From the NCBI GenBank assembly GCA_902515745.1, contig CABXWB010000001.1, positions 124,001 to 188,000 of the forward strand: a DNA stretch of 64,000 nucleotides, read 5' to 3'. The notes below the pieces were generated by a model. That model was not told the DNA's origin. It ran no database searches and saw nothing but the letters and a program-made list of their open reading frames with translations. Both the position numbers and the translations under genes were made by a program. Shown one piece after another: positions 15,156 to 46,735 of the stretch; position 1 is the first letter of the stretch; each line of letters opens with the position of its first letter. Source of the DNA: an uncultured Alphaproteobacteria bacterium (lineage in GTDB: Bacteria; Pseudomonadota; Alphaproteobacteria; HIMB59; GCA-002718135).

Positions 15156-15980
15156 CTATTCTTTAACTGCACCACCTGTTAGGCCCGCTACAATAAATCT
15201 CTGAAGAGCTAAGAAAAAAACTACAGCAGGTATTAAAGTAAGGGAAACAAAAGCTAATATTTTTGGCCAATCTGTAATGTATTCTCCTCTAAAAACCATA
15301 ATTCCAAGTGGCCAAGAATATAAATTTTCATTATTTATCATAATTAATGGTAGTAAATAATTATTCCAACTACCTACAAGATTGATTACGGCCACAGTTG
15401 CAATAATTGGTGTTGAGAGTGGTAAAGTAAATTTAAAGTAAAACTGTGAATATGTGCATCCATCAACGAAAGCAGCATCAAAAAGCTCAGAGGGCATTTG
15501 TCTAAAAAAACCTCTAAATAATATAATAGCAAAAGCCAAACCAAAAGCAATTTGTGGAAGAATAACTGCCCAAACTGACCCTAACAAACCAAGGTCTCTA
15601 ACTCTAAGAAAAAGAGGGAGGATGGCAGTTGCAAACGGGAAGGTTAAACCAAGTATAAAATAATTAAACAAAAATCTACTTCCAACAAACTTCATATGAG
15701 CAAAAACAAATGCTGTCATTGAAGCTAATAAAATTACTAGAAAAGTTGTTCCTGCTGCATATAAAACTGAATTCCAAGTAAATAGCCAAAACTTATTATC
15801 CACTAAAAGACTAGTGTAATTCCCAACAATCCATTCCGTTGGTAGTCCTAGTGAGTTAGTTCTTAAATCACCAATTGTTTTAAATCCTCCAGCAATAGAG
15901 ACGTAAAGAGGAATAAAAATAATTCCTGCTAATAAAAAAAGAAATAAATACATGTAGTAAGATCTAAAATTACTAAACAT
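15156..15980 (-). CDS. Carbohydrate ABC transporter permease (CUT1, MalG-like)
   Basis: Multi-TM, EAA-like motif (PSELFDAAFVDGCTYSQFYFKFTLPLSTP). ATG at 15980 forms TAATG overlap with the upstream permease; ORF start 16031 would overlap by 52 nt. Confidence 0.9.
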   Translation of the reverse strand: MFSNFRSYYMYLFLFLLAGIIFIPLYVSIAGGFKTIGDLRTNSLGLPTEWIVGNYTSLLVDNKFWLFTWNSVLYAAGTTFLVILLASMTAFVFAHMKFVGSRFLFNYFILGLTFPFATAILPLFLRVRDLGLLGSVWAVILPQIAFGLAFAIILFRGFFRQMPSELFDAAFVDGCTYSQFYFKFTLPLSTPIIATVAVINLVGSWNNYLLPLIMINNENLYSWPLGIMVFRGEYITDWPKILAFVSLTLIPAVVFFLALQRFIVAGLTGGAVKE

Positions 15981-16864
15981 TAATCTTTCCTCATTAAAGT
16001 TCTTTGATAAGTAATTGCTATTGTGAAACAAATTAGGAAAATAACAACACCTATTGCACTTCCAAATCCAAACTTCATTCTCATGACCCCAAAATAATAT
16101 AAATAAGTAACCATTGAATGTGTTTGGTTAGATGGGCCGCCACCAGTCAAAGGCATAATTATATCAAACAATTGAAGAGCTCCTAAAATAGATAGAAATA
16201 CTGATAACCTTATTGTTGGTAAAATAATTGGAATTTTAATTCTCCACGCTGTAGTAACTGGTCCTGCTCCATCTACCTTTGCTGCCTCTAAAACTTCTTT
16301 AGAAATATTTTGTAGACCAGCAATATATATCATCATATGTATTCCAAAGTATTTCCAAAAAATAACAATATATAAGGCAATCATTGCAGTTTCTTTTTCA
16401 GCAATCATATGAGGTGGATCGGCTCCAAAAAAATTCCAAATTGCTGCAACCATTCCGTAGTTTCCATCATAAATATACGCCCAAATTAATCCTGTAACTA
16501 TTTCTGCGAGAATATATGGAAGAAAAAAAACTGTTCTAAAAAAATTAGCACCTCTTATTTTGTCAGAAATCATTAAAGCGACCAACAAAGCAAAAGGTAA
16601 TTGAATAAATAGAGAAATAGCAATGATGTAAAAGTTATTTTTTAATGAAAGAATAAATGTCTTATTTTTGAAAAGATATTTATAGTTTTTTAAACCAACA
16701 TATTTATTAGGATCTCCATAACCATCCCATCTATAAAAACTATAATATGCTGCTTCAACAATAGGTAATACAACAAAAAGTGTAAAAATTGTTAACGCAG
16801 GAATTATAAATATTACAAGTGTTGAATACTTGCTTAAAAGAGCGTTATACTTGGCAGAATTCAT
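15980..16864 (-). CDS. Carbohydrate ABC transporter permease (CUT1, MalF-like)
   Basis: ISKEVLEAAKVDGAGPVTTAWRIKIPIILPTI EAA motif; multi-TM. Confidence 0.9.
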   Translation of the reverse strand: MNSAKYNALLSKYSTLVIFIIPALTIFTLFVVLPIVEAAYYSFYRWDGYGDPNKYVGLKNYKYLFKNKTFILSLKNNFYIIAISLFIQLPFALLVALMISDKIRGANFFRTVFFLPYILAEIVTGLIWAYIYDGNYGMVAAIWNFFGADPPHMIAEKETAMIALYIVIFWKYFGIHMMIYIAGLQNISKEVLEAAKVDGAGPVTTAWRIKIPIILPTIRLSVFLSILGALQLFDIIMPLTGGGPSNQTHSMVTYLYYFGVMRMKFGFGSAIGVVIFLICFTIAITYQRTLMRKD

Positions 16865-16874
16865 ATATTTGTTT

Positions 16875-16902: not shown

Positions 16903-16910
16903 TTTAGATA

Positions 16911-18164
16911 TTATTGATTAAATTCCCAAGATTCTTGGACTTGTTGTGCAGCCTCTTCAGCAGAAATAATTCCTGCAGCAAGATCAGTAGACACATCATT
17001 AACAACTCTTCCAATATCCGGACCTAAAAATTGGTCATAAAAAATTTGGTGATATTGAGAATTTCCTATGTTGTTTGCAACTTGAGCAAGTATTGGGTTA
17101 GTAATTGATTTATCCGCACCCTTTACAACTGGAAGGTAAGCACCTTTTGCAGCATCCTCATTTTGAATATCTGCTGAAACCAAGTGCATTAAAAATTCTA
17201 CAGCTGAGTCTGGTGCAGTTTTAGAAACTAACCATCCATTGATACCTCCAAGAGTATCAGCAGAATCACCAAGTGCTCCTGGAGTCATTGGCATACTAAA
17301 GATACCCATATTGTCATCTCCTAAACCTTCTCCACTTGCACTATTAGATTTTTGAGATGGATACATCCAATTACCCATAAAAGCCATTGCACATTTTCCA
17401 TCACCGAAAAATCCAGCTTGATCAGGCCAAGTATGACTTAACCAACCATCTTGAAAAGGTTCTAGTTCTACAAGTTCTAACATTTGTTCACCTGATTTAA
17501 TGTACTCAGGTCTATCCCAACCCCCATTTTCAAGTGACTCAAGGAATAATGCTTCACCACCATTTCTTATGTGTAAATGTGTCCAAATAAAATGAACCGG
17601 CCATTTATCTTTTCCACCTATACAAATTGGAGTTATACCAGCAGATTTAATTTGTTTAACTGCTGATAGTAGATCATCCCACATTTTGATACCATCAACA
17701 TCAACACCAGCTTGATTCATTAAATCTTTATTATACCACCAAGTAACTTGCGAAACATTTCTTGGCACACCAACTCTTTGTCCTTTATATACAAATGCAT
17801 TTGCAGCTGCTGCACTAAGTGTAGATAGATATTCATCAGTTATAACATCTGAAATATCTCTTAAGAAACCTGCTTCAGCTTGTGCATACATAACACCGCC
17901 ACCCCAACTATTGAATATATCTGGTCTGTCGTCAGACTGTAACATTGTTGGAAGCTTAGCTTTAAATGATTCATTTTCGAGATACATCATCTCAACTGTA
18001 TGTCCAGTTTTTGCCTCAAATTCTTCTATTGCTCTTACAAAGTTTGGATACTCTGGAGAACTTTCACCAGTTAAATGTAACCATTTAATTGTATCTGCTT
18101 GAACAGAACTAAAGAAGAATAAAGATACTGAACCTATGATAAATTTTAATAAATTTTTCATCAT
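16911..18164 (-). CDS. Extracellular sugar-binding protein of ABC transporter (CUT1)
   Basis: Signal peptide MMKNLLKFIIGSVSLFFFSSVQA; FEAKTGHTVEM. ggagga precedes ATG 18164/18161; ORF start 18218 is probably too long. Confidence 0.88.
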   Translation of the reverse strand: MMKNLLKFIIGSVSLFFFSSVQADTIKWLHLTGESSPEYPNFVRAIEEFEAKTGHTVEMMYLENESFKAKLPTMLQSDDRPDIFNSWGGGVMYAQAEAGFLRDISDVITDEYLSTLSAAAANAFVYKGQRVGVPRNVSQVTWWYNKDLMNQAGVDVDGIKMWDDLLSAVKQIKSAGITPICIGGKDKWPVHFIWTHLHIRNGGEALFLESLENGGWDRPEYIKSGEQMLELVELEPFQDGWLSHTWPDQAGFFGDGKCAMAFMGNWMYPSQKSNSASGEGLGDDNMGIFSMPMTPGALGDSADTLGGINGWLVSKTAPDSAVEFLMHLVSADIQNEDAAKGAYLPVVKGADKSITNPILAQVANNIGNSQYHQIFYDQFLGPDIGRVVNDVSTDLAAGIISAEEAAQQVQESWEFNQ

Positions 18165-18264
18165 TCCTCCTAAATTTTTTTTATTTTTACTCAGATAAGT
18201 AATATAATCAACAACCATATTGTCTTTTTTTTAGATAAAAAACATATAAAAATTAATACTAAAA

Positions 18265-19770
18265 ATGCACAAGAAACCAAATATTTTAATCTTTAATCCA
18301 GATCAGTGGAGAGGGGACATGTTAGGATATCTTGGTTATCCTGGAGCTAAAACACCAAATTTAGATAACATTATAAATAATGATGCAATTGCATTTAAGA
18401 ATGCATTCTGCCAAGCTACAGTGTGTACTCCAAGTCGTTGTTCATTTATGACTGGTTGGTACCCACATGTTCACGGTCATAGAACGATGCATTACATGCT
18501 ACATACTGATCAAGGTGATTCGAGCATATTATCAGAATTAAAAAATAAAGATTATTTTATTTGGTGGGGTGGAAAAAATGACTTGATAGCAGGACAAGAA
18601 GGATATCGTAATCATTGTGATATTTATTTTGAACCAACAGATAATGATTTTAAAAAATGGAACTACGCTCAACAACCAGGTACTCATGGTGGAGACCTAT
18701 CATGGAGAGGTCCCAATGATGGAGATAATTATTATAGCTTCTTTAAAGGAAAATTAGATAAAAAAGATAAAGATATTTATTTCGATGATGATTGGTCCAT
18801 GGTTTATGGGGCATTAGATTTTATTGAAGATTATAAAAAAGAAAAACCATTCTGTTTATTTTTACCACTTGGATATCCACATCCACCCTATTGCGTTGAA
18901 GATCCATGGTTCTCTTCGATTGATAGAAATATAATTCCTGAAAGATATCAATACAAAACATGGGAGGACAAACCAAGTCTCTTAAAAGGAATAATGGATG
19001 GTCAACAAATGCAAAATTGGACCGATGATCGTTGGAATGAATTGCGCGCTGTTTATCTTGGTATGTGTGCAAGAGTTGATTACCAATTTGGCCTTTTAGT
19101 GAAAAAATTAAAGCAAAATAATATGTATGATAATACTTTAATTATTTTTCTATCAGATCATGGTGATTTCACTGGTGATTACAATCTCGTTGAAAAAACT
19201 CAAAATACTTTTCAAGATTGTCTGACTAATGTTCCTCTAATAATTAAACCGCCTAAAAGTGAGAACACGCTTAATGGTGTGAGTGATACAATGGTTGAAT
19301 TGATTGACGTGGCAGGTACAATATATGACTATAGCAATATAGAACCCTCATATTGGCATTTTGGAAAGAGTATTAAAAATTTTATCGATCAAAAAATTAA
19401 TAGTCATAGAGAAGAAGTATTTACTGAGGGTGGTAGACTTAGATTAGAAAGACAAGCCAGCGAAAACCAAAGCCTACAACTACCTCATGGTCTTTATTAT
19501 CCTAGAGTAAGTTTACAGGGTAAAGAAGATGAAATTTTAATGCATACCAAAGCTACAATGTGCAGAAATAAAAAATTTAAATATATAAAAAGAGCTTACG
19601 AAAAAGATGAGCTCTATAATTTAATTGAAGATCCTGGAGAAATTCATAATGTTATTGATGATAAACAATACTCATCAGAGCTTAAGAAGCTAAAAGATAA
19701 AATGTTGTCATGGTATCAAGAAACTTGTGATGTTGTTCCCTTAAAAGGTGATGAAAGAGATTTTAACTAA
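18265..19770 (+). CDS. Sulfatase (type I, Cys-type), no evident signal peptide
   Basis: N-terminal KKPNILIFNPDQWRGD; maturation motif CTPSR; FLSDHGDFTGDY. Confidence 0.9.
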   Translation: MHKKPNILIFNPDQWRGDMLGYLGYPGAKTPNLDNIINNDAIAFKNAFCQATVCTPSRCSFMTGWYPHVHGHRTMHYMLHTDQGDSSILSELKNKDYFIWWGGKNDLIAGQEGYRNHCDIYFEPTDNDFKKWNYAQQPGTHGGDLSWRGPNDGDNYYSFFKGKLDKKDKDIYFDDDWSMVYGALDFIEDYKKEKPFCLFLPLGYPHPPYCVEDPWFSSIDRNIIPERYQYKTWEDKPSLLKGIMDGQQMQNWTDDRWNELRAVYLGMCARVDYQFGLLVKKLKQNNMYDNTLIIFLSDHGDFTGDYNLVEKTQNTFQDCLTNVPLIIKPPKSENTLNGVSDTMVELIDVAGTIYDYSNIEPSYWHFGKSIKNFIDQKINSHREEVFTEGGRLRLERQASENQSLQLPHGLYYPRVSLQGKEDEILMHTKATMCRNKKFKYIKRAYEKDELYNLIEDPGEIHNVIDDKQYSSELKKLKDKMLSWYQETCDVVPLKGDERDFN

Positions 19771-20687
19771 TACAATTCATTCTCAATTCTAGTAAGCCAA
19801 TAATCAATATCTAAATTTTTATTACCAGTGAGCATTCTCCAGAACTTAATTGTATTGATTTTATCTAATCGATTTGTATCTGCCTCTTGCCAAGGATATG
19901 ATTTCATTAAAATATCATTGACTGTTTTTTCTTGATTTTCATCTGTCCAATACAATGCTTTATTAGGAAGTGGTTTATATTTTTTTTCAGGATCCCATAA
20001 TAATTCCTGTTTTTCTGTTGGTTGCAATCTAACTTTGAACATGTACCTAATTTCATCTGAAAAATTAACACCTGCACCATGCCACAAGCCATTATGAAAA
20101 ATCCCAATTGTACCTGCCTTACAAACTATATTTTTCTGTCCTTTAATATTTTGGTATTTAGCAATTCCCATTTCGTTTACAATTCTGAGATGTGTACCAG
20201 GATGATATCTTGTGCCACCCATTTCTTTTGTAACATCAGTTGGGAAATAGAATAATTGAATATCAAATGTAATTCTTGGATCAATTGTGCTGTCTTGATG
20301 ATTAACTTGAGACATCTGTCTTTGATTAGTTTTTTTAAAGTATTTTGTTGGGAATGTTAGATGAAGAAATTGATGATCAACTACAGACTCAGATCCAACT
20401 AAACTATTAATTGCTCCTGCTACAACTTCATTTTGGAAAATTTTTTCTAAAGGAGATTTGTGTTGATACGCATTCTTGAGTGGTGTTCCTGCAGGAATTC
20501 TTGGAATGCTGCTAGAGGCTTTAATATTTTGAAAATACTTTTGCATATTATCGACGTTTTCAATATCGGTATGTCCAATATCGTTTAAAAATTCTTTATT
20601 AGTTTCATTATCTATTAATCCATCAAAAAATAAGCATCCACTATTAGCAAACTCTGCCATTTGCTCGGTTGATAATAATTGTACCAT
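19767..20687 (-). CDS. Phytanoyl-CoA dioxygenase (PhyH) family Fe(II)/2OG oxygenase
   Basis: HQD motif (VNHQDSTIDPR) and distal H...R (GLWHGAGVNFSDEIRYMFKVRLQP). Confidence 0.8.
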   Translation of the reverse strand: MVQLLSTEQMAEFANSGCLFFDGLIDNETNKEFLNDIGHTDIENVDNMQKYFQNIKASSSIPRIPAGTPLKNAYQHKSPLEKIFQNEVVAGAINSLVGSESVVDHQFLHLTFPTKYFKKTNQRQMSQVNHQDSTIDPRITFDIQLFYFPTDVTKEMGGTRYHPGTHLRIVNEMGIAKYQNIKGQKNIVCKAGTIGIFHNGLWHGAGVNFSDEIRYMFKVRLQPTEKQELLWDPEKKYKPLPNKALYWTDENQEKTVNDILMKSYPWQEADTNRLDKINTIKFWRMLTGNKNLDIDYWLTRIENELY

Positions 20688-20688
20688 C

Positions 20689-20967
20689 TTAAAAATCTCC
20701 TTCTTCTATTTTTTCAAAAAAAAATTCATGTTTTAAATATGAAGTCCTAAATTCCTCTCCTGGATGCTCTGGGATGGCTTGACTTGATTGAAATAATCTC
20801 CACCCATCTAATAATGCGTCGAGCCCCGTAGGATAAGGAGGCTCGTCACTATCACCTGTCATATGGAGTTTTTGACCAGTACCATCAAAAGTAGCCCATG
20901 AAATAACTTCTGCTTCTAGACTTGGGAACTTTAAATAAAGAACTAAAACTTTTTGTCTTTTGGGCAT
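20689..20967 (-). CDS. Small (92 aa) protein of unknown function
   Basis: Packed with 1-nt spacing between sulfatase and PhyH genes; MPKRQKVLVLYLKFPSLEAEVISWATFDGTG... Confidence 0.75.
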   Translation of the reverse strand: MPKRQKVLVLYLKFPSLEAEVISWATFDGTGQKLHMTGDSDEPPYPTGLDALLDGWRLFQSSQAIPEHPGEEFRTSYLKHEFFFEKIEEGDF

Positions 20968-22479
20968 TTAATTTTCTTTAAAATAATTTTTTAATAATTC
21001 TTTTGGTGGATCATATGTTTTAATTTCACTCAGCATAAGATTTTTATATTTGTTTATTAAATCCTCATCATTAATAGGATGTAGTTGGCCGGGATCTTCC
21101 TTCAAATTATAAAGTGCGCATTTAGTATCTTCTAGTGATTTATGTGGATCTGATTTTCTAAGAATTCTGTTAACTTTCATGACTGGAATATTCTTAGTAA
21201 AGTTAAACGGTTCATGCATAGTAGCAGTTTGCAATTCTTCATGTGAAAAAAATTGCCTCATATTTGTTGGCATCAATGTATACTGAAATCTACTTCTATC
21301 GTATTGATCAAAATTTTCTGGGAAATGAAAATATGAATAGTCTCCATCAGAAATGTTTATACCCCCACCCCAGTATCCATACAAAGCGAAATGTTCATTT
21401 TCACTATCTTTATCTAAAAAGTTTAGTAATGATTTGCCTTTAACTTCTTTAGGAAGATTATGACCGTGCATTGTCATGAATGTTGGCATCAGATCAATGT
21501 TTTGAGTTACAACATTTCTTTGCTCTCCCGAATATTGTTTGTATTCAGGGTGATAAAAATAGAAAGGTATATTTGCAATTTCATTATACAATGGCATTCT
21601 ATTTTTAGCCCACCAATCATGTTCTCCAAGCATGAAGCCATGATCAGTTGTTAAGATTAATGCAGTGTCATTCCATAAGTTATTTTCATCAAAATAATCT
21701 AAAATAGTACCAAGCAAATAATCACATAGTCCAACTAAAGCAATGTAATTGGCTTTTAACTCTGCAACCTCATCATCTGTCTCTTTGACTCTGTCATACT
21801 GAGGCCAATCTAATCTTGGGCCTGTATAATTTGTTTTTAATTTCTCTCTAAATCGCTCTGGTGCAAAAAAAGGTTCATGAGGATCAAAGGTTTCTAGTTG
21901 AAGAAACCAATTATCAGCATCTTTATTAATATTGATAAAGTCTAAACCAGATTCAAAGCATTTAACCGAAGGAAAATCTTTTTCATCTTTAATAAACTCA
22001 CTATTGATTGCATAATGATAGTATCCTGTTTCTCTATTAGTTAAATTTAATTGAGATTGATGATATTTTTCTCTTAATTTTTCAAGCGGTGGTTGTACCA
22101 TGGCTTTCCATGGGTCGCTTTCTTGTCCTCTAATAAAATCCCAAGAATTAAATCGATTATGATAAGTTGCACCGCCATCCTCAAAATAATGATAATGATC
22201 AGTTACTAGATGAGTGTATGTATCATTAAGACGTAAAATTTCTGGAAATGAATTATCAAATGGTTCTAGTGGTCCCCATGCACGATGCAAAAAACTTAAT
22301 CGTCCTGAATGCATGTCTCTTCTTGCAGGCATACAAGGCATACTACCAATATAATGATTATTAAATTGGACTGATTTTTCTGCTAATCGATTAAAATTTG
22401 GCGTTTCAATATATTTACCACCATAAGAATTTAACATTCTTTTATTTAATGAATCAAATAAAAGGAAAACTGTTTTCAT
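20968..22479 (-). CDS. Sulfatase (Cys-type), no evident signal peptide
   Basis: MKTVFLLFDSLNKRML; motif CMPAR; LTTDHGFMLGEHDWW. Confidence 0.9.
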   Translation of the reverse strand: MKTVFLLFDSLNKRMLNSYGGKYIETPNFNRLAEKSVQFNNHYIGSMPCMPARRDMHSGRLSFLHRAWGPLEPFDNSFPEILRLNDTYTHLVTDHYHYFEDGGATYHNRFNSWDFIRGQESDPWKAMVQPPLEKLREKYHQSQLNLTNRETGYYHYAINSEFIKDEKDFPSVKCFESGLDFININKDADNWFLQLETFDPHEPFFAPERFREKLKTNYTGPRLDWPQYDRVKETDDEVAELKANYIALVGLCDYLLGTILDYFDENNLWNDTALILTTDHGFMLGEHDWWAKNRMPLYNEIANIPFYFYHPEYKQYSGEQRNVVTQNIDLMPTFMTMHGHNLPKEVKGKSLLNFLDKDSENEHFALYGYWGGGINISDGDYSYFHFPENFDQYDRSRFQYTLMPTNMRQFFSHEELQTATMHEPFNFTKNIPVMKVNRILRKSDPHKSLEDTKCALYNLKEDPGQLHPINDEDLINKYKNLMLSEIKTYDPPKELLKNYFKEN

Positions 22480-22509
22480 GGAAATAGATTAATATGAAAT
22501 AAATAATTA

Positions 22510-23877
22510 TTAAAGTTTTTTCTTTAATCGATGAAAAGAATCAGGATTTAATCCCATTTGACCAGGATTATTTACATTGTTAGCTTTTTTAATTTTGGAT
22601 GTAATATTTTCAACTTTTTGAATTTTGTTTTTAATCTTTTTTCTTAATGAGGCTGTAATTTCATCATAAGTACTAATGCCAATTAGATTATTTAATTCAT
22701 ATGGATCGGCATCAAGATCATAAAGGTTTGTTTCAGTGTATTGGTTAGATGAAGGTTTATCACTCCCATTAGAATCATGATCAGCAATACAATATTTCCA
22801 TTTTTCAGTTCTTAGGCTTCTAGCTAATTGACTTTCGCTAATTTGAATAAAAATTTCGTTTTCCCATTTTTTGGAAGTTTTATTTACCAAAGGCAATACT
22901 GATCTACCATCACAATGAGAAGTGTTTTTAACTTTTGCCAAGTCCAATATTGTTGCATGAATATCTAGAATGTTAGTTAGTTCTTTTATACGTCCACCTT
23001 GCTGAAAAACATTTCCTATCAAAGACGTAGGAACCCGTATTGAACTTTCATGACATGAACGTTTATATTCTCTATTTCGTGTTTTAAAATTATTTCCATG
23101 ATCAGATGTAAAAATAATTGCACTATCATCAAATAATTTTAAACTTTTGATGACATCAATCATTCTGCCATAAGCTTCATCTATTCTCTTCACCATTCCA
23201 TAGTAACCACCTAAATGCCGAGGAGAAGATCCAACTAGAGATGAAAGATCTGGTGGTGACCACTTACCTGTGTATTTTTCTCTGTATCCAATAGGTGGTG
23301 GATAATCATCTGTATTATTTTGATGATGTGGCTCAATAAGAGAAACGAAAAGAAAAAATGGTTTTTTTTGATTTAGTTTTATAAAATTTATAGCTGCATC
23401 AGTTATTGCATCAACTCTATATCCTGGAAGAAATACTTTTTTATTTTGTCCATCGTAAACATATGTTTCATAAGCATCAGATGTAAATTCTAATAGATTT
23501 GATCCTAACCAATAATCATAACCACCTCTATCCTCTTTTTTAACTGGTTCAGAAGAGCCAAGGTGCCACTTTCCAATATATCCAGTAGCATATCCTTCTT
23601 TGGATAAATATTTTGCTAGAGTTTTAATATTTTTTTTTAAAGGTATTCTATTTTTAAAACATCCAGTTTTTGTTGCATACATTCCTGATTGTAATGAAGC
23701 TCTTGCAGGCCCACAAACTGGTTGACATGTAAATGAATTATAAAGATGTGTAGCTTCGACTGCATAATGATCGAAGTTCTCCATCAAGGATAATGGATTG
23801 CCATGTAAACCAGAAGTATCCCAGCGTTGTTGATCAGTGAAAAATACAATAATATTTGGTTTAGATTTAATATTCAT
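22510..23877 (-). CDS. Sulfatase (Cys-type), no evident signal peptide
   Basis: KPNIIVFFTDQQRWD; motif CGPAR; FTSDHGNNFKTR. Confidence 0.9.
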   Translation of the reverse strand: MNIKSKPNIIVFFTDQQRWDTSGLHGNPLSLMENFDHYAVEATHLYNSFTCQPVCGPARASLQSGMYATKTGCFKNRIPLKKNIKTLAKYLSKEGYATGYIGKWHLGSSEPVKKEDRGGYDYWLGSNLLEFTSDAYETYVYDGQNKKVFLPGYRVDAITDAAINFIKLNQKKPFFLFVSLIEPHHQNNTDDYPPPIGYREKYTGKWSPPDLSSLVGSSPRHLGGYYGMVKRIDEAYGRMIDVIKSLKLFDDSAIIFTSDHGNNFKTRNREYKRSCHESSIRVPTSLIGNVFQQGGRIKELTNILDIHATILDLAKVKNTSHCDGRSVLPLVNKTSKKWENEIFIQISESQLARSLRTEKWKYCIADHDSNGSDKPSSNQYTETNLYDLDADPYELNNLIGISTYDEITASLRKKIKNKIQKVENITSKIKKANNVNNPGQMGLNPDSFHRLKKKL

Positions 23878-23889
23878 TATGATTTAGAT

Positions 23890-25389
23890 TTATTTACTAA
23901 AAGGTTTTCCTTTATATTTCCTAAGATTGTCAGCATGTTTTTTTCTGTCTGTTTTTTCAAGACGCTCAACATATGTATTCCAGACTTTTGAATAAATATT
24001 TGCATGATGAGGACCGCCTTCTCTAATTACACCTTGAAGAGGGTCTCCTCTATCAGCCTCATACATATTTTCTTCAATCCACTCATCGATTAAAAACATT
24101 CCATGCGCTACGAGATCTTTATGCTGATCTGCTAGGTTATTCAACTCATGCGGATCCTTTTCAATATCGAAAAGCATATATTTTGGAAAATCTTTTAATC
24201 CAGTATCGTACGTTCTTATCAGTAACCAATTATCCCATCTTACAGATCTTTGACAACTCCAAGCACCATGACTAATAACTAAATAATCTCTTCCATTTGA
24301 TGATTTACTATTAGTTAAATTTTCAGTGAAATTAATACCGTCCCATCTGTCAGGTTGTGAAGATGAAGTAATTTGAGAAATAGTTGACGTTAAATCTAAA
24401 TTATAAAATTTATTTTCTACAGTACTTCCTTCATTTGTATCTGTTATCCCCGGCCATCTAATTATTAATGGAACTCTATTAGTTATATGATCAGCTGTTT
24501 GGTGATCTCCCCACACATTTAACTCGCCTTGATTTTCTCCGTGGTCTGCTGAAATAATTATTGCCGTATCATCCCAAAGATTCATTTTTTTTAAATCTTC
24601 AAAAACTTTATTTAAATAAAAATCTGCGTATTTAATTCCAGTATCATATGCATCAATTTGTTCTTTAGCATCAGAAGTATTTTTAATTTCACCCACTCCC
24701 ATTGTATACTTTCCTCCAAGATCTTCATTAAATCCTGGAACTTCTCTAGCGCTATGCGGTCCGAAACTATTCCTTTGTTTTTTAATTAATTCTTCTGTCA
24801 CCCATTCTTCGATAGGATCATCTTTAAAAGGATTTCCAAAGTCTTCAGGCGTATCATACGGAGTATGAGGATCCCACATATTTACATGTAAGAACCAATT
24901 TTCTTTTTCTCCATTATTATCTAACCACTTTTTTATAACAGGGTAGACTTCATCAGCATTTTCTAAACCACCTTTTCCCGTGTCATATGTTTCCGTAAAA
25001 CCAAACCAAACTTGATAAGCTGTATGTCTTTCAGGGAAAGGACTGATACTTGCTGTATAATATCCTGCATCTCGAAGAACTTTTCCGAGAGATGTAAAAG
25101 CATATTCTCCTCTTAAACCTCCTTTAAATTCTCTATTCCAAATATTTTTTCTAGGAGCAATATCAGAGAATTCACCACCATGATTAACAACTCCAGTTTT
25201 GAAACCAAAATTACCTCCAAACAAAGCAGTTCTACTTGGTAGGCAAGGTGTGTCAGTCGAATAAAAATTTGTAAACTTAACCCCTTCTTTTGCTATTGCG
25301 TCAATGGTAGGAGATGTATTTCTGTGATAACCATAACATCCCAAGTGATCAGGTCTTAAAGAGTCTATGTCTACGTATAAAATTCTCAT
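23890..25389 (-). CDS. Sulfatase (Cys-type), no evident signal peptide
   Basis: MRILYVDIDSLRPDHLGCYGY; motif CLPSR; ISADHGENQGEL. Confidence 0.9.
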   Translation of the reverse strand: MRILYVDIDSLRPDHLGCYGYHRNTSPTIDAIAKEGVKFTNFYSTDTPCLPSRTALFGGNFGFKTGVVNHGGEFSDIAPRKNIWNREFKGGLRGEYAFTSLGKVLRDAGYYTASISPFPERHTAYQVWFGFTETYDTGKGGLENADEVYPVIKKWLDNNGEKENWFLHVNMWDPHTPYDTPEDFGNPFKDDPIEEWVTEELIKKQRNSFGPHSAREVPGFNEDLGGKYTMGVGEIKNTSDAKEQIDAYDTGIKYADFYLNKVFEDLKKMNLWDDTAIIISADHGENQGELNVWGDHQTADHITNRVPLIIRWPGITDTNEGSTVENKFYNLDLTSTISQITSSSQPDRWDGINFTENLTNSKSSNGRDYLVISHGAWSCQRSVRWDNWLLIRTYDTGLKDFPKYMLFDIEKDPHELNNLADQHKDLVAHGMFLIDEWIEENMYEADRGDPLQGVIREGGPHHANIYSKVWNTYVERLEKTDRKKHADNLRKYKGKPFSK

Positions 25390-25405
25390 CTTTATCCTTT
25401 CTTAA

Positions 25406-26947
25406 TTAAGCGCCTGAAACTCTTTTCATTTTTGATGTTTCATCTTTTAATGTGGCTTGTGCAAACTTAAATAATAAATCTTTTTTTAATGTTTGTGCAT
25501 TCGTGTTATCCCATAAATTATTATATTCGTTTGGATCATTTTCTAAATCAAAAAGTTCACCGTAGTTAGCTTCTCGGTAAATAGAAATTTTATAGTTATC
25601 ATTTATGTAAGTTTTTAAATGTGGCATTCTTGGATTATGTCTATTTTCAACAAATATATGTGAACGGATACTTTCCTTGTTGCCATAAAATACATCCGTT
25701 TGATCCACTCCTTGCATTTGACTTGGTATATCAATGCCCGCAACTTTTAAAAATGTTGGCGCAAGATCAACTAAACTTAACAAAGATGATGATGAAGAAT
25801 TTTCAGGTACTTTACCAGGCCATCTAACAATAAAGGGTAAGCGGAGCATATCTTCATAGTGGAAAGGTCCTTTAGCAATTAAACCATGCTGTCCTATAAA
25901 GTGACCATGATCAGTAGTAAAAATAATTATGGTATTATCAAGTTCACCCATTTGATCTAACTTATTAATTATTTTTCCAATATTCTTATCCATAAAACTA
26001 ACCATGCCATAATAAATAGCCATGTCTTTCTTTAATTCTTCCATAGGATACAGATGACTCATGCATCCATGAGCGTTAAATGGTGAATGCCAATTTTCGA
26101 AATCAGGATTTGTTGTTTGTGTTTTTCCAAAATGTGGTGGATTTAATTCGTGTTCACCTTCTTTTAACGTGCCAGGTGACATGTCTTCTGAATTATACAT
26201 TGATGCCCATGGTTCACTTAATACATACGGTGGATGTGGATCTTGAAAACTTGTCCAAAGAAAAAATGGCTTGTCATCTTTTTGTTGATCTAAAAATTCA
26301 ATTGATCTTTCGGCTGTCCAATTTGTGTAGTGATGTTTTTCGTCTAACTTCCAAACCCTATCCGGTCTCGCCCAGTAGTCATATTCACGAGCAATAGGAG
26401 GGGCGTATTTAGAAGTTTCACCAGGTACTGGTTGAAAATACTCTTTCCAATCACTAAGACCGTTTTGTTCCATCCAAATTGCATAATGTTGACCTACATG
26501 ACTTTCATCTGCATGATTACGTGCTAGCTCAATATGTTCAAAGCCATACCAAGGTCCTTTAAAATTTTTCCAAAATTCTAAATCTCTTAAAGTTGGTTGT
26601 CCTTCTATAGATACCTGACCTGGAACTGAAGTTAATGGCTGGAAATGTGCTTTACCAATTAAACCAGTAGAGTAACCATTTTTGTATAAAAGTTCTCCAA
26701 TAGTTTCTACTTCTTCATCTAATTTTACACCAATTGTCCACGCTCCATGAGAGGAAGGATATTGCCCAGTAATAATACTTGCTCTTGATGGTGTACAAAC
26801 TGGTGATGGACAATAAGCTCTTGTAAAATTCATTCCTTCATCACAAAGCTTATCTAAATACGGTGTTTGTATTTTTGAATTAAATTTTCCTATTGTATCA
26901 TGATGCTGTTGATCTGAAGTTATTAATAAAATATTAGGTCTTTTCAT
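25406..26947 (-). CDS. Sulfatase (Cys-type), no evident signal peptide
   Basis: KRPNILLITSDQQHHDT; motif CTPSR; FTTDHGHFIGQHGL. Confidence 0.92.
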   Translation of the reverse strand: MKRPNILLITSDQQHHDTIGKFNSKIQTPYLDKLCDEGMNFTRAYCPSPVCTPSRASIITGQYPSSHGAWTIGVKLDEEVETIGELLYKNGYSTGLIGKAHFQPLTSVPGQVSIEGQPTLRDLEFWKNFKGPWYGFEHIELARNHADESHVGQHYAIWMEQNGLSDWKEYFQPVPGETSKYAPPIAREYDYWARPDRVWKLDEKHHYTNWTAERSIEFLDQQKDDKPFFLWTSFQDPHPPYVLSEPWASMYNSEDMSPGTLKEGEHELNPPHFGKTQTTNPDFENWHSPFNAHGCMSHLYPMEELKKDMAIYYGMVSFMDKNIGKIINKLDQMGELDNTIIIFTTDHGHFIGQHGLIAKGPFHYEDMLRLPFIVRWPGKVPENSSSSSLLSLVDLAPTFLKVAGIDIPSQMQGVDQTDVFYGNKESIRSHIFVENRHNPRMPHLKTYINDNYKISIYREANYGELFDLENDPNEYNNLWDNTNAQTLKKDLLFKFAQATLKDETSKMKRVSGA

Positions 26948-26949
26948 GT

Positions 26950-27801
26950 TTACCCTTTTACAGCTCCTTGGACACCTTCAACAAAATATTTTTGCATAAA
27001 CAAAAATAAAATAATTATAGGCAAAATAGTTATAACAGATGCAGCTGCCATACCAGACCAATCGACAAAGTATTCTCCTTTAAAAGCATACACACCTACA
27101 GATAATGTTCTAATATCAGGATTACCAAGAGTAATAACTACAGGTAGTAGAAAATCATTCCATGCATGTAAAACTTGTAAGATAGAAACAGTTGCTACAA
27201 CTGGCTTGGTTAATGGTAACATAATCATAATAAAAGTTCTGATAAATCCAGCTCCATCCATTTTTGCAGCTTCTTCGAGCTCGACGGGTATTCTTGAAAA
27301 GTATCCAGCAAATAATAAAATATATATTACAGGCGTATGACCAGCAGTTGCGATTGTTAAGCCGATTAAATTTTTAGATATTTTTAAATCTGTTAATAAA
27401 TCAAAAACTGGAATTATAGTATAACCTTGAGGAATAAAAATTGTGGCAATTAAAATTCCAATAAGTATTTTTTTTCCAGGAAAAGCATATCTTCCAATCA
27501 CATAACCAAACATTCCGGTTGTGATCACTACTATGACAACTGAAACAACAGTAATTATAAGAGTATTAAAAAAATACCTTCCCATGTTGGCTCCAAACCA
27601 AGCTCTCTCAAAATTTTCCCATATAAGCTTATCTGGTATTAAGCCTAGGCCACCCCAAATTTCGAAATCAGTTTTTAGAGAAGCAGAAAGAACCCATAAA
27701 AGAGGGTATATCCAGAAGAAAGAAAAAATAAGAAAGAATACAGTAATTGTCAAATATCTAACTTGGTTTTTTTCAGCGATAAAATTTAAATATTTGCTCA
27801 T
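26950..27801 (-). CDS. Carbohydrate ABC transporter permease (CUT1, MalG-like)
   Basis: IPVELEEAAKMDGAGFIRTFIMIMLPLTKP EAA motif. ATG at 27801 overlaps the upstream stop (ATGA); ORF start 27885 is likely too long. Confidence 0.9.
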   Translation of the reverse strand: MSKYLNFIAEKNQVRYLTITVFFLIFSFFWIYPLLWVLSASLKTDFEIWGGLGLIPDKLIWENFERAWFGANMGRYFFNTLIITVVSVVIVVITTGMFGYVIGRYAFPGKKILIGILIATIFIPQGYTIIPVFDLLTDLKISKNLIGLTIATAGHTPVIYILLFAGYFSRIPVELEEAAKMDGAGFIRTFIMIMLPLTKPVVATVSILQVLHAWNDFLLPVVITLGNPDIRTLSVGVYAFKGEYFVDWSGMAAASVITILPIIILFLFMQKYFVEGVQGAVKG

Positions 27802-28712
27802 ATTCTTCGAGTTCTCCTCATCCAAAATCCCTGAAGTGCTGTAATGAATAATACAGCTACACCCCAAAATACACCCGCAGCGCAAGCATATCCAAGCCTT
27901 GGCATTGTCCCGGCATCTGTGACAAATGCAGTTCTAAAAATATAAACTTCCATGACCTCACTACTAAAGAAAGGTCCTCCTGCGGTCATTGTTTCAATTA
28001 ATGGAAAAACATTTAAAGCACTAACCGCCTCAACTAAAATTATTACTATAGCAAAAGGTAATACTATCGGTAAAATTATATGAATCCATAATCTGTAGCC
28101 TTGTGCACCATCAATTTTGGCTGCATCATAAACATCTTGTGGAACTGTTTGTAAAGCTGCCAACCAGTACATCATTGTAATACCAAGCCATTTCCAAACG
28201 TACACACCCATTACAGTTGGCAATACTGTGTCTGGATTACCAAGAAAATCAATTGGAGCAGAAGTTAAATTTGTTGCCATTAAAAATTTATTAGCAGGCC
28301 CATTAAATGGACTAAAAATAAAAGTCATAACTATACCAATAATAGCAATTGCAGTTACAACTGGCATGAAAATTACTGTTCTAAAAAAAGGAGACAATTT
28401 TAAAACCTGATTGTTTAAGAATACAGCAATGATGAATCCTAAAATTATTTTTACAGGAACAGTGCCAAACATAAAAATAAAGGAACGATAAAAAGCATTC
28501 CAAAAAAATGGATCATTTATTGCTTCAGCATAATTTTGGAAACCAATGAATTTGGCTTCTTTAGTAAAACCACTCCAGTCCAACAATGAAAAGTACCAAG
28601 ACATTCCAATTGGGTACAAAACAAACATTCCTGTAAGAATTGAACACGGTAAAACGAACAAGTAACACCATCGTGCTTCGTACATTTGCTGGGTTAATGA
28701 TTTTTTATTCAT
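27798..28712 (-). CDS. Carbohydrate ABC transporter permease (CUT1, MalF-like)
   Basis: VPQDVYDAAKIDGAQGYRLWIHIILPIVLP EAA motif. Confidence 0.9.
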   Translation of the reverse strand: MNKKSLTQQMYEARWCYLFVLPCSILTGMFVLYPIGMSWYFSLLDWSGFTKEAKFIGFQNYAEAINDPFFWNAFYRSFIFMFGTVPVKIILGFIIAVFLNNQVLKLSPFFRTVIFMPVVTAIAIIGIVMTFIFSPFNGPANKFLMATNLTSAPIDFLGNPDTVLPTVMGVYVWKWLGITMMYWLAALQTVPQDVYDAAKIDGAQGYRLWIHIILPIVLPFAIVIILVEAVSALNVFPLIETMTAGGPFFSSEVMEVYIFRTAFVTDAGTMPRLGYACAAGVFWGVAVLFITALQGFWMRRTRRI

Positions 28713-28719
28713 AATAGAA

Positions 28720-28744
28720 AAAGGCGAATTAAAAATTCGCCTTT
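28720..28744 (-). other. Perfect intercistronic hairpin between SBP and permease genes
   Basis: aaaggcgaatt-aaa-aattcgccttt, 11-bp stem; short T-run on the minus strand. Confidence 0.8.
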
Positions 28745-28756
28745 AAATAATTTTTT

Positions 28757-30289
28757 TTATAATTCAGCGTACTTAGCTGCACCGTAATTAGAGCTAGTAT
28801 CCCAATTTGGAAATACCCAATCATCACGAGTTACATTAGCACCGTCCGCTCTTGCTTCATCAACTGCTTTATCAAGTGCATCTTCATATCTTTGGTTACA
28901 ATCTTTAAGCTGTGCTTCGACACCTTTAAGTTGACCAGTATAAAGACCTTGAATAACTAGAGCTAAAGATGGGTCTGGCATTCTTGATTTTGCAGCAACA
29001 ATACCAACATCTTTATTTCTAACAATTGGATTAGGTCCAACAAGAAGATTTTCGTTGAACATTTTAAGAGCTTGAGCTGAAGGTCCAGTTAGACCAGCCT
29101 TTGCAACAGCTGCTGGGCTTATTGCAGGATCTGCTGCACCAACAGTTTGTGCCCAGTAAATTTGACCTTGCTCAGTTCCCATAAATCTAACTAAGTCACC
29201 TGCAAAAGGTCCCATTTTACTATCTTTACTTAACCATAAAGTGTTTGATCCACCCTCAGCTATATAAAGAGGCTCTGCTTTCTTTCCATCAGGAACAGGT
29301 TCACTAGCTATACCATACTCCCAGTTTGGAGCATCTTTAGCCCATGTTCCAATACACCAAGGTCCTTGGAAAATCATTCCTGCAGCACCTTGAGGCATAA
29401 GAGCTCGTGCTTGAGGAGCATTCATACTCATAACACCTGGGAATGCACTTCCATCAGATTTTAGTTGTAATAAAAGCTCAACAGCTTCCATGTATTGATC
29501 AGAAGCAATTACAAATTTACCAGTTTTAAAACTAATATGTCTATTTGTAAATCCGCCTCTTCCACTATGAGCTCCAGCAACCTGTCCAAAAGTATGAACC
29601 ACATCTTCCCAACGATTTACCTGGTTACCACCAATGATCCAGCCATAGTATTGACCTTTACCATTTGCAGTTATTTTTTTAGCTGCATCTCTTATTTCAG
29701 AATATGTCATTCTTCCTGCTTGAGGATCATAACCTGCTTCACTCATGTATTTACTGCTATATAAAAGACAAGTACCTGTTCTTTTATTTGCTGTTAAACA
29801 TACACCATAAGTTTTACCATCAAACTGATTAACACCTGGTAAATAAACACCGCTAGGGAATCCAGCTAACCATTCATCAATGTTATGAATGTAGTCATCC
29901 CAAGGCTGAACCCATCCCTCAGCAACAGCAACACCAGGGTCCATGTTCAAAGGAATTTGGAATACATCATGAACAGTTCCATTTCTTACTGCTAGAGGAA
30001 CAATTTTATTTATTTCTTTCCACGGTAAGCCATCATATTCAATAGTTATACCTCTTGAAGCTGCATATTCTGGAAATATTTTTTTCCAAAAAACACCTTT
30101 CATATCTCCACTGTCAATCCACCTCATATTACCACCCGTAGTTGGAAGTGGTTTTAATGGGTCAGGAATATCATATTGACCTGCGAACAACTGTGAAGGA
30201 ATTGATGTAGCAGACATTACTGCACCGGCTGCTAGAGCTCCTTTCATAACTGTTCTTCTGGAGATTTTTAATTGATTTTTTTTCTTCAT
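28757..30289 (-). CDS. Extracellular solute-binding protein of ABC transporter with Tat-like signal
   Basis: N-terminus KISRRTVMKGALAAGAVMSATSIPSQLFA (twin Arg + hydrophobic core); SBP-like body. Confidence 0.85.
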   Translation of the reverse strand: MKKKNQLKISRRTVMKGALAAGAVMSATSIPSQLFAGQYDIPDPLKPLPTTGGNMRWIDSGDMKGVFWKKIFPEYAASRGITIEYDGLPWKEINKIVPLAVRNGTVHDVFQIPLNMDPGVAVAEGWVQPWDDYIHNIDEWLAGFPSGVYLPGVNQFDGKTYGVCLTANKRTGTCLLYSSKYMSEAGYDPQAGRMTYSEIRDAAKKITANGKGQYYGWIIGGNQVNRWEDVVHTFGQVAGAHSGRGGFTNRHISFKTGKFVIASDQYMEAVELLLQLKSDGSAFPGVMSMNAPQARALMPQGAAGMIFQGPWCIGTWAKDAPNWEYGIASEPVPDGKKAEPLYIAEGGSNTLWLSKDSKMGPFAGDLVRFMGTEQGQIYWAQTVGAADPAISPAAVAKAGLTGPSAQALKMFNENLLVGPNPIVRNKDVGIVAAKSRMPDPSLALVIQGLYTGQLKGVEAQLKDCNQRYEDALDKAVDEARADGANVTRDDWVFPNWDTSSNYGAAKYAEL

Positions 30290-30386
30290 TTAATCCTCCC
30301 TATTAATATTGAGTAAACATTAGGGATATTTCACAAAATAACAATTGAAAATAAATTTAAAATTATGTTAATATTTATTAATAAAT

Positions 30387-30812: not shown

Positions 30813-30813
30813 C

Positions 30814-43995: not shown

Positions 43996-45150
43996 TTATC
44001 TGAATTTTAGATTTTTTCTTGTTAGCTCTTTTACGTTAGAAACACCCATTAATTTCATATCTCTTTCAATTTCACTGCGTAAATTGGACAAACTTTTTTC
44101 AACACCCTTTTGACCACCAGCAGCAAGAGCATATAAATACATTCTTCCTCCAGAACAGGCTTTGGCACCTAGAGATAACGCTTTTAAAACATGAGTACCT
44201 CTTCTAATACCACCTTCACAGATAACATCTATTTTATCTCCAACAGCATCTACAATTTCAGCAAGTTGATCGAATGGTGATCTTGAGCCATCTAATTGCC
44301 TTCCCCCGTGGTTAGAAATCATTATTGCTGATGCTCCAACATCTACAGCTTTTTTAGCATCATCTACTGACATTATTCCTTTGATAGCAAATTGACGTCC
44401 CCAGTCTTGATTAATTTTTTCAATATCTTTCCAACTTAATGAGTTATCAAGCATTTTTGTAAAGTAGTCACCAATAGTCGTCATTACAGTTGTGCCTTCG
44501 TTTATATGATCTTTTAGATTGCTCAACTCCCATTTTGGTTTTGTAAAATAATCTATTGCCCATTTTGGATGAACCATAAAACTTGCAACACTATTTAGTT
44601 TTAGTTTCATAGGAATAGTAAAACCGGTATATAAATCTCTTTCACGATTTCCACCAACTGCAGTATCTACAGTTACAGCCATTGCTTCAAAATTGGATTC
44701 CTTACACCTTTCTATTAGAGCTTTATTTAACCCTTTATCTTTATGAACATATAATTGAAATAATTTTGGTGTTTTTACTAAATTTGATATTTCTTCAATG
44801 CTAGCAGTTCCTAAAGATGAAATTCCGAACATTGTTCCAAATTTTTCAGCCGCTTTAGCAACACCAATCTCTCCCTCGTAATGAAATAGTCTTTGAAGAG
44901 CAGTCGGCGCACAATACAATGGCATATCTAATTTTTGACCCATTACTGTGGTCGACATGTCTACTTTATCAACACCACTTAAAACATTGGGAATTAAATC
45001 GCACTGCTCATAAGCATCAGTATTTCTTTTATAAGTTATTTCATCATCAGCAGCGCCGTCAATATAGTGAAAAATAGGACTGGGTAATCTTTTTTTTGCT
45101 AAGTTTCTAAAGTCTTTAACGTTGTGACAATTATTTATACTTCCAAACAT
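43996..45150 (-). CDS. FMN-dependent alpha-hydroxyacid dehydrogenase (L-lactate dehydrogenase LldD-like)
   Basis: IMISNHGGRQLDGSRSPFDQL, EGGIRRGTHVLKALSLGAKA. Confidence 0.9.
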   Translation of the reverse strand: MFGSINNCHNVKDFRNLAKKRLPSPIFHYIDGAADDEITYKRNTDAYEQCDLIPNVLSGVDKVDMSTTVMGQKLDMPLYCAPTALQRLFHYEGEIGVAKAAEKFGTMFGISSLGTASIEEISNLVKTPKLFQLYVHKDKGLNKALIERCKESNFEAMAVTVDTAVGGNRERDLYTGFTIPMKLKLNSVASFMVHPKWAIDYFTKPKWELSNLKDHINEGTTVMTTIGDYFTKMLDNSLSWKDIEKINQDWGRQFAIKGIMSVDDAKKAVDVGASAIMISNHGGRQLDGSRSPFDQLAEIVDAVGDKIDVICEGGIRRGTHVLKALSLGAKACSGGRMYLYALAAGGQKGVEKSLSNLRSEIERDMKLMGVSNVKELTRKNLKFR

Positions 45151-45998
45151 TATGCTTGAATAGTTTTTTGAGTTTGTTCTCCTAAACCTTCAATACCAAG
45201 TTTCATCACATCACCTGCTTTTAAAAAAACTTGTGGGTTCATTCCCATTCCAACCCCAGGGGGTGTTCCGGTCGAAATAATATCACCTGGTTGCAATGAC
45301 ATAAACTGACTTAAATAGCTGATTAAAAAATTTACTCCGTAAACCATCGTATTAGTAGACCCATCCTGCATTCTTTTACCGTTAACATCAAGCCACATTT
45401 TTAAATTTTGTGGATCTGGAACTTCATCAGTAGTTACAAGGTAAGGACCTATTGGACCAAAAGTATCACAAGATTTGCCTTTCACCCATTGACCTGAATG
45501 TTCTATTTGAAACTCTCTTTCACTTAAATCATTGACAACACAATATCCAGCAATGTGAGACTGTGATTCACTTTCAGAAATATATTTTGCCTCTTTTCCT
45601 ATAATAACTCCGAGCTCAACTTCCCAATCTGATTTAACTGATTTTTTGGGTATTTCTACATCATCATTTGGGCCAATAACTGCACTTGTTGCTTTAGCGA
45701 ATATGATAGGTTCCGGTGGTACTTTTTGGCCTGTTTCCTCTGCGTGATCAGAATAATTAAGACCAATACATATAAATTTTCCAATGCTATCTTTAGAAAC
45801 ACAAGGTGCAAACCCATCATTCATTTCAACTAAAGGTAAAGATGTAAGGTCAGTTTTTTTTACTTCATTAAGTTTGTCTATAGTTACGTTTTTGTTATCC
45901 CAATCTTTTACTAAAGAAGAAGCGTCACGAATATTGCCTTCTTGATCAAGTAATCCAGGTTTTATTTCTTTACCAATTCTGAATCTCAAAATTTTCAT
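45150..45998 (-). CDS. Fumarylacetoacetate hydrolase family, 2,4-diketo-3-deoxy-L-fuconate hydrolase-like
   Basis: MKILRFRIGKEIKPGLLDQEGNIRDAS; CIGLNYSDHAEE; WEVELGVIIG; TGTPPGVGMG. ATG 45998 preferred to ORF start 46010. Confidence 0.8.
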   Translation of the reverse strand: MKILRFRIGKEIKPGLLDQEGNIRDASSLVKDWDNKNVTIDKLNEVKKTDLTSLPLVEMNDGFAPCVSKDSIGKFICIGLNYSDHAEETGQKVPPEPIIFAKATSAVIGPNDDVEIPKKSVKSDWEVELGVIIGKEAKYISESESQSHIAGYCVVNDLSEREFQIEHSGQWVKGKSCDTFGPIGPYLVTTDEVPDPQNLKMWLDVNGKRMQDGSTNTMVYGVNFLISYLSQFMSLQPGDIISTGTPPGVGMGMNPQVFLKAGDVMKLGIEGLGEQTQKTIQA

Positions 45999-46735
45999 TA
46001 TAAAGTCCATCCTCCATCAATTAAATTTAAAGTGCCAGTAACAAAATCTGATTCATCACTTGCTAAATATGTTGCAAGAGATGCAATTTCTTCTGGCTGT
46101 GCTAATCTTCCCATAGCCTGCCTAGCAATAAAATCTGACCGTGCCTTTTTTGGATCCTCAGCCATATTAACTCTACCCTCCCAAGAAGGTGTTTCAACAG
46201 TTCCTGGTAAAATGGCGTTACAGCGAATACCGTCTTTGACGTGATCAATGGCTATAGCTTTTACAAATCCGTTGAGTGCAGCTTTGGTTGTGCCATAGAT
46301 AAATCTATTAGGAGCACCTTTTACATTTGAAGCAGCAGAGGAAACAATAACGATACTTCCTTTTTTCTTTTTAAGCATTTTTGGTAAGAGATTATGAGTC
46401 ATTAAATATGCAGAAAAAACATTTACATTTATTGATCTTGAAAATTCATTTTCATCACAATCAAGAATGGTACCATGATGAACAAAACCCACAGCATGAA
46501 ATAAAACATCTATCTTATCTACAGTTGAACAAAAAGCCTCAACCTCATTTTTATTCGTAGCATCTAATTTAATGATTTGAATATTATTATTTTCTTTTTT
46601 TAAATCTTTGAGCGTATCTTCATTAATATCAGTTGCTAATACTGAAGCTCCCTCATTTGCAAATCTCAATGCTGTGGCTTTTCCTATTCCTTGAGCAGCG
46701 GCAGTAACAATAATATTTTTTTTATCTAGTCTCAT
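45998..46735 (-). CDS. Short-chain dehydrogenase/reductase (2-keto-3-deoxy-L-fuconate dehydrogenase-like)
   Basis: TAAAQGIGKATA, YGTTKAALNGF, CNAILPGTVETPSWEGR. Confidence 0.82.
   Translation of the reverse strand: MRLDKKNIIVTAAAQGIGKATALRFANEGASVLATDINEDTLKDLKKENNNIQIIKLDATNKNEVEAFCSTVDKIDVLFHAVGFVHHGTILDCDENEFSRSINVNVFSAYLMTHNLLPKMLKKKKGSIVIVSSAASNVKGAPNRFIYGTTKAALNGFVKAIAIDHVKDGIRCNAILPGTVETPSWEGRVNMAEDPKKARSDFIARQAMGRLAQPEEIASLATYLASDESDFVTGTLNLIDGGWTL

Follow-up and report, generated by a model that had tools for sequence, protein, structure and literature searches.

Leaderless sulfatases beside a CUT1-type importer in a marine alphaproteobacterium whose genus lacks known sulfatase maturases

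Introduction

Import of sulfated sugars followed by cytoplasmic desulfation is already known in outline. In the fusobacterium Streptobacillus moniliformis, the glycosaminoglycan cluster Smon0120-0127 encodes a CUT1-like ATP-binding cassette (ABC) importer for sulfated disaccharides and a sulfatase predicted to be cytoplasmic and to act once they are imported (PMC5430744). Here we describe a related arrangement in a window of 64,000 nucleotides (contig C1:124001-188000) from the 1.62-Mb, 89.7% complete genome of an uncultured alphaproteobacterium, where genes for a CUT1-type importer, four sulfatases, a 92-residue protein (p92) and a PhyH-family oxygenase (PhyH1) lie head to tail. As in S. moniliformis, CUT1-type import would precede cytoplasmic desulfation. 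The fusobacterial cluster, however, pairs one sulfatase with polysaccharide lyases and UGL, whereas the present locus, in a streamlined marine alphaproteobacterium, carries four plus one sulfatases of apparently different subfamilies, with no lyase or hydrolase in the block.

Choline sulfatases of the betC type resemble the block enzymes in being leaderless Cys-type S1 sulfatases with an imported small-molecule substrate; unlike them, the block sulfatases score only 95-198 bits against the choline-sulfatase profile TIGR03417 (cut-off 433 bits), and the genus has no canonical formylglycine-generating enzyme (FGE), while S. meliloti has a putative one (PMC6189696). Polysaccharide utilization loci of marine Bacteroidota and Verrucomicrobiota also cluster several S1 sulfatases with uptake genes, but their sulfatases are exported and act before uptake, whereas none of those described here could be exported by a cleavable leader. 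The initial annotation of this DNA was thus correct in separating the block from the usual secreted-sulfatase locus, although the arrangement has its precedent in Streptobacillus.

We read the organism and its relatives as members of the AG-337-I02/AEGEAN-169 (HIMB59) lineage, names that the literature applies to one wider group. In the same wider lineage, 'Ca. Indicimonas' (AEGEAN169 clade II) was reported to have 2-8 sulfatases in each genome, together with a GH29-containing fucose operon, and the clade was described as not sulfatase-enriched (PMC11366302); sulfatase counts and fucose use are thus published, and that text is silent on a sulfatase operon, a cytoplasmic location, the p92-PhyH module and maturation. 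Outside subscription papers, no publication on sulfatase maturation in this group was found. What is new here is the leaderless five-sulfatase locus, p92-PhyH as a broadly distributed gene couple, and the lack of known maturases throughout the genus.

Results and Discussion

Organization and conservation of the locus

All nine minus-strand open reading frames were found where the initial annotation had placed them, between 19767 and 30289, co-directional and with very short gaps or overlaps (Table 1). The S_CMPAR stop and the p92 ATG abut (20968/20967), and 1 nt separates p92 from PhyH1. The automatic TTG start of permB at 27885 is probably wrong, as an in-frame ATG at 27801, read from the translation, gives a 4-nt overlap with permA. 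An SBP_bac_1 binding protein and two BPD_transp_1 permeases identify the importer as CUT1 type. A fifth sulfatase (S_plus), a second CUT1 importer (15156-18218) and a hairpin behind the binding-protein gene had been overlooked.

The C-x-P-x-R signature was confirmed in all four block sulfatases (CTPSR, CLPSR, CGPAR and CMPAR), which reach 98-189 bits against PF00884 (cut-off 25 bits). The genome encodes eight sulfatase-family proteins, every one of them Cys-type, leaderless at the first start and with the DHG motif kept; the four of the block also keep the metal-site Asp. The reported lack of signal peptides held on re-examined starts: in the block sulfatases the first catalytic strand already falls within residues 1-15 and the N-termini have no hydrophobic character, while in the six window sulfatases checked in-frame stops occur a few codons upstream of each start, so that no earlier start could supply a leader. 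Hydrophobicity and upstream stops thus gave no sign of the signal peptides that mark secreted-sulfatase loci.

The comparison covered forty loci, taken from relatives and from this genome itself. The same gene order recurs in about 17 related genomes, the named ones including the single-cell genomes AG-337-I02 and AG-893-F05, and the ratio of nonsynonymous to synonymous substitution (dN/dS) is 0.02-0.06 for the four block sulfatases; the latter reflects strong purifying selection and marks them as functional genes, and both together show that the block is not a product of chance. The active-site motif is conserved in 17/17 S_CTPSR and 19/19 S_CGPAR orthologues, and among 23 S_CMPAR orthologues it reads CMPAR in 22 and CIPAR in one. 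Beyond the genus, no S_CTPSR orthologue was found in the class at E<=1e-80 (395 genomes), and an apparent S_CLPSR match in locus L180 actually falls inside an amidohydrolase. Since mutual identity among the four enzymes does not exceed 27%, it is plausible that they represent different S1 subfamilies with different regiospecificities.

As the importer and the leaderless sulfatases stand in one conserved cluster, which suggests cytoplasmic desulfation of an imported small solute, we consider it probable that the locus scavenges a small sulfated carbohydrate by intact import and stepwise cytoplasmic desulfation, coupled to fucose-type catabolism and to non-canonical sulfatase activation. The solute would be captured by the Tat/Sec-exported CUT1 binding protein and imported intact through the two permeases, powered by a shared MalK-type ATPase encoded elsewhere. 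A MalK/UgpC-type ATPase containing OB_MalK and TOBE_2 domains is encoded outside the block, on contig C2, and this protein may be the one that the block importer shares. Leaderless S1 sulfatases of different subfamilies would then take off the sulfates position by position, and the sugar so released, which would most likely be fucose or another deoxyhexose, would be oxidised by the non-phosphorylating fucose pathway with the aid of a cytoplasmic GH29 fucosidase, leaving sulfate as waste. The p92-PhyH1 pair would be a separate accessory oxygenase module, inserted beside several sugar importers in the genus, and the active-site cysteines would be activated in a way that involves neither canonical FGE nor the anaerobic sulfatase-maturating enzyme (anSME), or would work unmodified. 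Intact import followed by stepwise desulfation had been proposed by the initial annotation; it gains from the joint conservation of importer and leaderless sulfatases and loses from the mosaic nature of the block, and we infer the substrate, the order of the steps and sulfate as the leaving group. Uptake of whole sulfated sugars with internal desulfation would keep the product private to a free-living oligotroph and, if true, would change the expected consumers of sulfated algal sugars in nutrient-poor water.

Modular composition of the block

At least two modules, which also occur separately, make up the block and give it a mosaic structure. Most relatives keep module A (SBP1-permA-permB-S_CTPSR-S_CLPSR-S_CGPAR) strictly in this order, with very short gaps between its genes. 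Module B consists of S_CMPAR-p92-PhyH1 with the convergent S_plus and the second CUT1 importer (SBP2). L086 shows its order without module A, as does the more distant L169, there at 56-81% identity. A third CUT1 importer stands between S_CMPAR and p92 in L088, L089, L091, L093, L094 and L108; p92-PhyH1 follows that importer, which differs from those of the block, with no adjoining sulfatase, in L090, L092, L107, L109 and L115; and genes for a GMC oxidoreductase and an HpcH/HpaI-type lyase are inserted between S_CLPSR and S_CGPAR in L078 and L079. The block site, flanked by xylA-thuA on one side and a glyoxalase/desaturase pair on the other, behaves as a hypervariable dock. Against relative L087, synonymous divergence (dS) amounts to 0.18 in S_CTPSR and to 1.0 in SBP1, indicating that parts of the block were exchanged separately.

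Modules that come and go, together with this uneven dS, would also be expected if independent catabolic cassettes had recombined into one hypervariable site, their common direction being incidental and the importer, the sulfatases and p92-PhyH1 serving different substrates. We regard this explanation as unlikely, if the most serious of the alternatives, for it accounts poorly for the strict, tightly spaced order of module A in most relatives and for the retention of S_CMPAR-p92-PhyH1-S_plus-SBP2 in the distant L169. A separate observation concerns L088:6533-8593, where a putative glycoside hydrolase with a GHL6 domain adjoins the third CUT1 importer and p92-PhyH1; similar frames of 686/687 residues occur in L091, L092 and L107-L109.

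A division of the block by terminators or promoters was also considered. The terminator-like hairpin is kept in 14/14 relatives compared and shows a compensatory A-T/G-C change on both sides of one stem pair (GGCGAA...TTCGCC to GGCGAG...CTCGCC); Rfam gave no match anywhere in 15000-31000, the hairpin included. Promoter-like matches numbered 55 against 64 expected from shuffles, and are thus not enriched and uninformative. Hairpins behind binding-protein genes usually reduce downstream expression and do not end the operon, and we read this one as attenuation biased towards the binding protein, as is typical, rather than as a true operon split.

Catalytic residues of the sulfatases

The K-x-H motif comprises general-acid residues equivalent to PAS K113/H115. 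GK-x-H is present in S_CTPSR and S_CGPAR, absent from S_CLPSR and shifted in S_CMPAR. S1 enzymes with C-x-P-x-R also include phosphonate monoester hydrolases and phosphodiesterases of the same superfamily, and the four proteins might accordingly scavenge phosphorus rather than carbon. The block sulfatases have only distant relatives in the Protein Data Bank (PDB), and the best match of S_CMPAR there is indeed a phosphonate monoester hydrolase (4upk), and the habitat of the organism is low in phosphate. Against the PehA profile NF045661 (cut-off 900 bits), however, the block sulfatases score only 97-188 bits, which speaks against the assignment to phosphonate monoester hydrolases that had been left as a possibility; in addition, S_CTPSR and S_CGPAR keep the sulfatase-type GK-x-H, the adjoining importer is of the sugar type with no phosphate genes near, and the one protein in which Y-x-T, typical of phosphonate monoester hydrolases, was seen is S_511, encoded elsewhere in the genome on contig C4. 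Phosphorus scavenging is therefore improbable, and all four enzymes would cleave sulfate rather than phosphate or phosphonate esters. S_511 itself (L099:7889-9424) is a leaderless S1 enzyme in which Y-x-T replaces K-x-H; it adjoins an oligopeptide-type ABC importer and is likely, from these features, a phosphonate monoester hydrolase or phosphodiesterase.

Absence of known sulfatase maturases

For full activity, the active-site Cys of type I sulfatases has to be converted to formylglycine, a step carried out by FGE or anSME. Maturation had not been considered in the initial annotation; it is the real puzzle of the locus, and the missing maturase is its surprising part. A total of 101 genus genomes were searched for FGE (PF03781) and anSME (TIGR03942, cut-off 349 bits), and 61 were scanned for sulfatases, which were present in 51 (185 in all).

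The PF03781 search returned nothing in the genome of the window, and FGE-fold proteins were found in 17/101 genus genomes. In the sequences from 14 distinct genomes there is no Cys between GGS and GFR, the stretch that we take to be the place of the two copper ligands in true FGE. True FGE has a bis-thiolate site with two Cu-binding cysteines (PMC12123546). Devoid of active-site cysteines and absent from the genome of the window, the FGE-like proteins of the 17 relatives were rejected as maturases. In the neighbourhoods examined (L100-L104, L116, L203-L211) they adjoin a leaderless Cys-type sulfatase of 424-434 residues and a CUT1 importer, and are possibly sulfatase partners.

No protein in the 101 genomes exceeded the TIGR03942 cut-off, the best match reaching 75 bits and the others at most 34; most were of about 30 bits in MoaA-sized frames of 330 residues. 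The radical-SAM proteins found in the genome of the window are presumably MoaA, MiaB, MtaB, LipA and one SPASM protein. The SPASM radical-SAM protein at L122 was rejected as anSME, as it scores 26.6 bits and adjoins NeuB-like genes, and most sulfatase-rich relatives give no TIGR03942 match at all. Under independence, the probability that incompleteness hides one universal maturase in all 51 sulfatase-bearing genomes is about 10^-32.

A genus of abundant ocean bacteria with up to eight Cys-type sulfatases per genome and neither FGE nor anSME leads us to lean, by a small margin, towards another formylglycine-generating system, perhaps related to that of E. coli, or towards sulfatases working with unmodified Cys. 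Both have parallels: E. coli activates Cys-type sulfatases without FGE by an elusive machinery, and the choline sulfatase of S. meliloti turns over with plain Cys at a low rate (PMC6189696). For the activation of Cys-type sulfatases in E. coli and other FGE-less bacteria, a streamlined 1.6-Mb genome that has eight such conserved enzymes but no known maturase offers a natural test case with few candidates to consider.

The p92-PhyH1 pair

For p92, a collection scan returned at least 364 relatives. Of the 35 loci from beyond the clade (L168-L202), all but L185 (34/35) have p92 directly next to a homologue of PhyH1 with 33-56% identity, in the order p92-PhyH in Proteobacteria and PhyH-p92 in Actinobacteria. 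The neighbours of the pair vary there (phosphotransferase, polysaccharide deacetylase, enolase-superfamily protein), indicating that it is not a desulfation module, and in Streptomyces, Kribbella and Caulobacter it is widespread at sites where no sulfatase adjoins it; within the genus it adjoins sugar importers. PhyH1 keeps HxD...H and Arg in 16/16 aligned sequences, and its model fold resembles SptF and human PHYHD1. For p92, which has 27 invariant positions over 34 sequences, AlphaFold returned a moderately confident alpha/beta model (pLDDT 83, pTM 0.74) with no PDB match at E below 1. We read p92 as a dedicated partner of the PhyH1 oxygenase.

The role of PhyH as an oxidative step of the desulfation pathway, put forward initially, is not supported by this distribution across many genomes and phyla. 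The sulfatase-p92-PhyH order noted initially stands in so far as S_CMPAR-p92-PhyH1 is kept to the distant L169, and fails in so far as the pair mostly lacks sulfatase neighbours. That PhyH1/p92 is itself the missing maturase, a 2-oxoglutarate oxygenase oxidising the active-site cysteine, would suit its chemistry, its position beside sulfatases and the presence of p92 in 19/19 genomes with at least five sulfatases, and is nevertheless ruled out for practical purposes by its distribution, 21 genus genomes having sulfatases but no p92 (incompleteness aside) and the pair being widespread elsewhere without them.

Candidate substrate and points against the proposed function

Contig C4 of the same genome carries a fucose operon with a leaderless GH29, a fuconolactonase, a fuconate-dehydratase-like MR_MLE protein and an aldo/keto reductase. 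In L095/L096, p92-PhyH1 adjoins a fucose operon (fuconolactonase-like protein, MR_MLE dehydratase, SDR, GntR regulator, CUT1 importer and GH29). Within the window, the SDR-FAH-FMN set (Table 1) likely performs the last steps of non-phosphorylating deoxyhexose (fucose/rhamnose) catabolism and may be linked to the block. No PAPS reductase was found in the genome, so that the cell probably does not draw on the released sulfate for sulfur; with the cytoplasmic GH29, this makes a sulfated fucose-type sugar used for carbon the likeliest substrate. A sulfated fucose-type mono- or oligosaccharide is thus our best guess from the gene content, a tentative one held with less than even confidence.

Several points weigh against import and desulfation of such a sugar by a single operon. 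The hairpin weakens the single-operon interpretation without overturning it, and modules A and B, being separable, may serve different substrates. The usual K-x-H residues are wanting in two of the four block sulfatases, and the block itself has no dedicated transport ATPase or glycoside hydrolase genes. The fucose genes lie on another contig or 14 kb from the block, inositol and xylose genes (true XylA; IolD) are nearer, and the substrate is one that we infer. Finally, at 89.7% completeness single absences are weak for this genome alone.

Features of the window and neighbouring genes

Table 1. Positions of the block genes and associated features in the window.
Feature	Position	Strand	Evidence or remark
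SBP1, CUT1 solute-binding protein (SBP), 510 aa, Tat-like signal	28757..30289	-	PF01547 66.5 bits, PF13416; TAT_signal E 2.6e-4
Terminator-like hairpin, 11 bp, AAAGGCGAATTTTTAATTCGCCTTT + T-run, in 44-nt gap 3' of SBP1 gene	28720..28744	-	between SBP1 and permA
permA, CUT1 permease, UgpA/MalF type	27798..28712	-	PF00528; NF007852 below cut-off
permB, CUT1 permease, ATG-corrected start	26950..27801	-	PF00528
Sulfatase S_CTPSR, 513 aa, leaderless, GKAH present	25406..26947	-	PF00884 189 bits; nearest PDB S1_30A 9ihk
Sulfatase S_CLPSR, 499 aa, leaderless, without K-x-H	23890..25389	-	PF00884 138 bits
Sulfatase S_CGPAR, 455 aa, leaderless, GKWH present	22510..23877	-	PF00884 161 bits
Sulfatase S_CMPAR, 503 aa, leaderless, K-x-H position atypical	20968..22479	-	PF00884 98 bits
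p92, 92-aa protein, putative PhyH partner	20689..20967	-	no Pfam/NCBIfam family
PhyH1, Fe(II)/2-oxoglutarate oxygenase	19767..20687	-	PF05721 46.7 bits
S_plus, fifth sulfatase, 501 aa, CTPSR, leaderless, convergent with PhyH1	18265..19770	+	PF00884 114 bits
SBP2, second CUT1 solute-binding protein, signal-like N-terminus	16911..18218	-	sequence and ABC similarity, no Pfam scan of SBP2; recurs beside S_plus in relatives
permC, CUT1-type permease	15980..16864	-	synteny
permD, CUT1-type permease	15156..16031	-	synteny
SDR - FAH-family hydrolase - FMN-dependent (L-lactate-type) dehydrogenase	43996..46735	-	NF053535 385 bits (cut-off 500, not reached); FMN_dh 432 bits

Elsewhere in the window, a second, unrelated PhyH oxygenase (31817-32764, 106 bits) adjoins a fatty-acid desaturase, and an inositol-like catabolic cluster next to the block (32767-42555) contains two sets of genes for ribose-type ABC importers, a Gfo/Idh/MocA oxidoreductase and a true IolD (TIGR04377, 763 bits; cut-off 715). 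The MalK-type ATPase of contig C2 belongs to a further sulfatase cassette (L098:6498-13665), together with a 499-aa protein without Pfam family, a 434-aa sulfatase and a CUT1 importer. A second import-plus-sulfatase unit of the window (50705-58894) includes a leaderless PehA-like sulfatase (56993-58576, CGPSR) beside apparent TRAP transporter genes, an FAH-family hydrolase, an extradiol-dioxygenase-like protein and an FAD monooxygenase, and looks like a unit for aryl-sulfate import and ring degradation.

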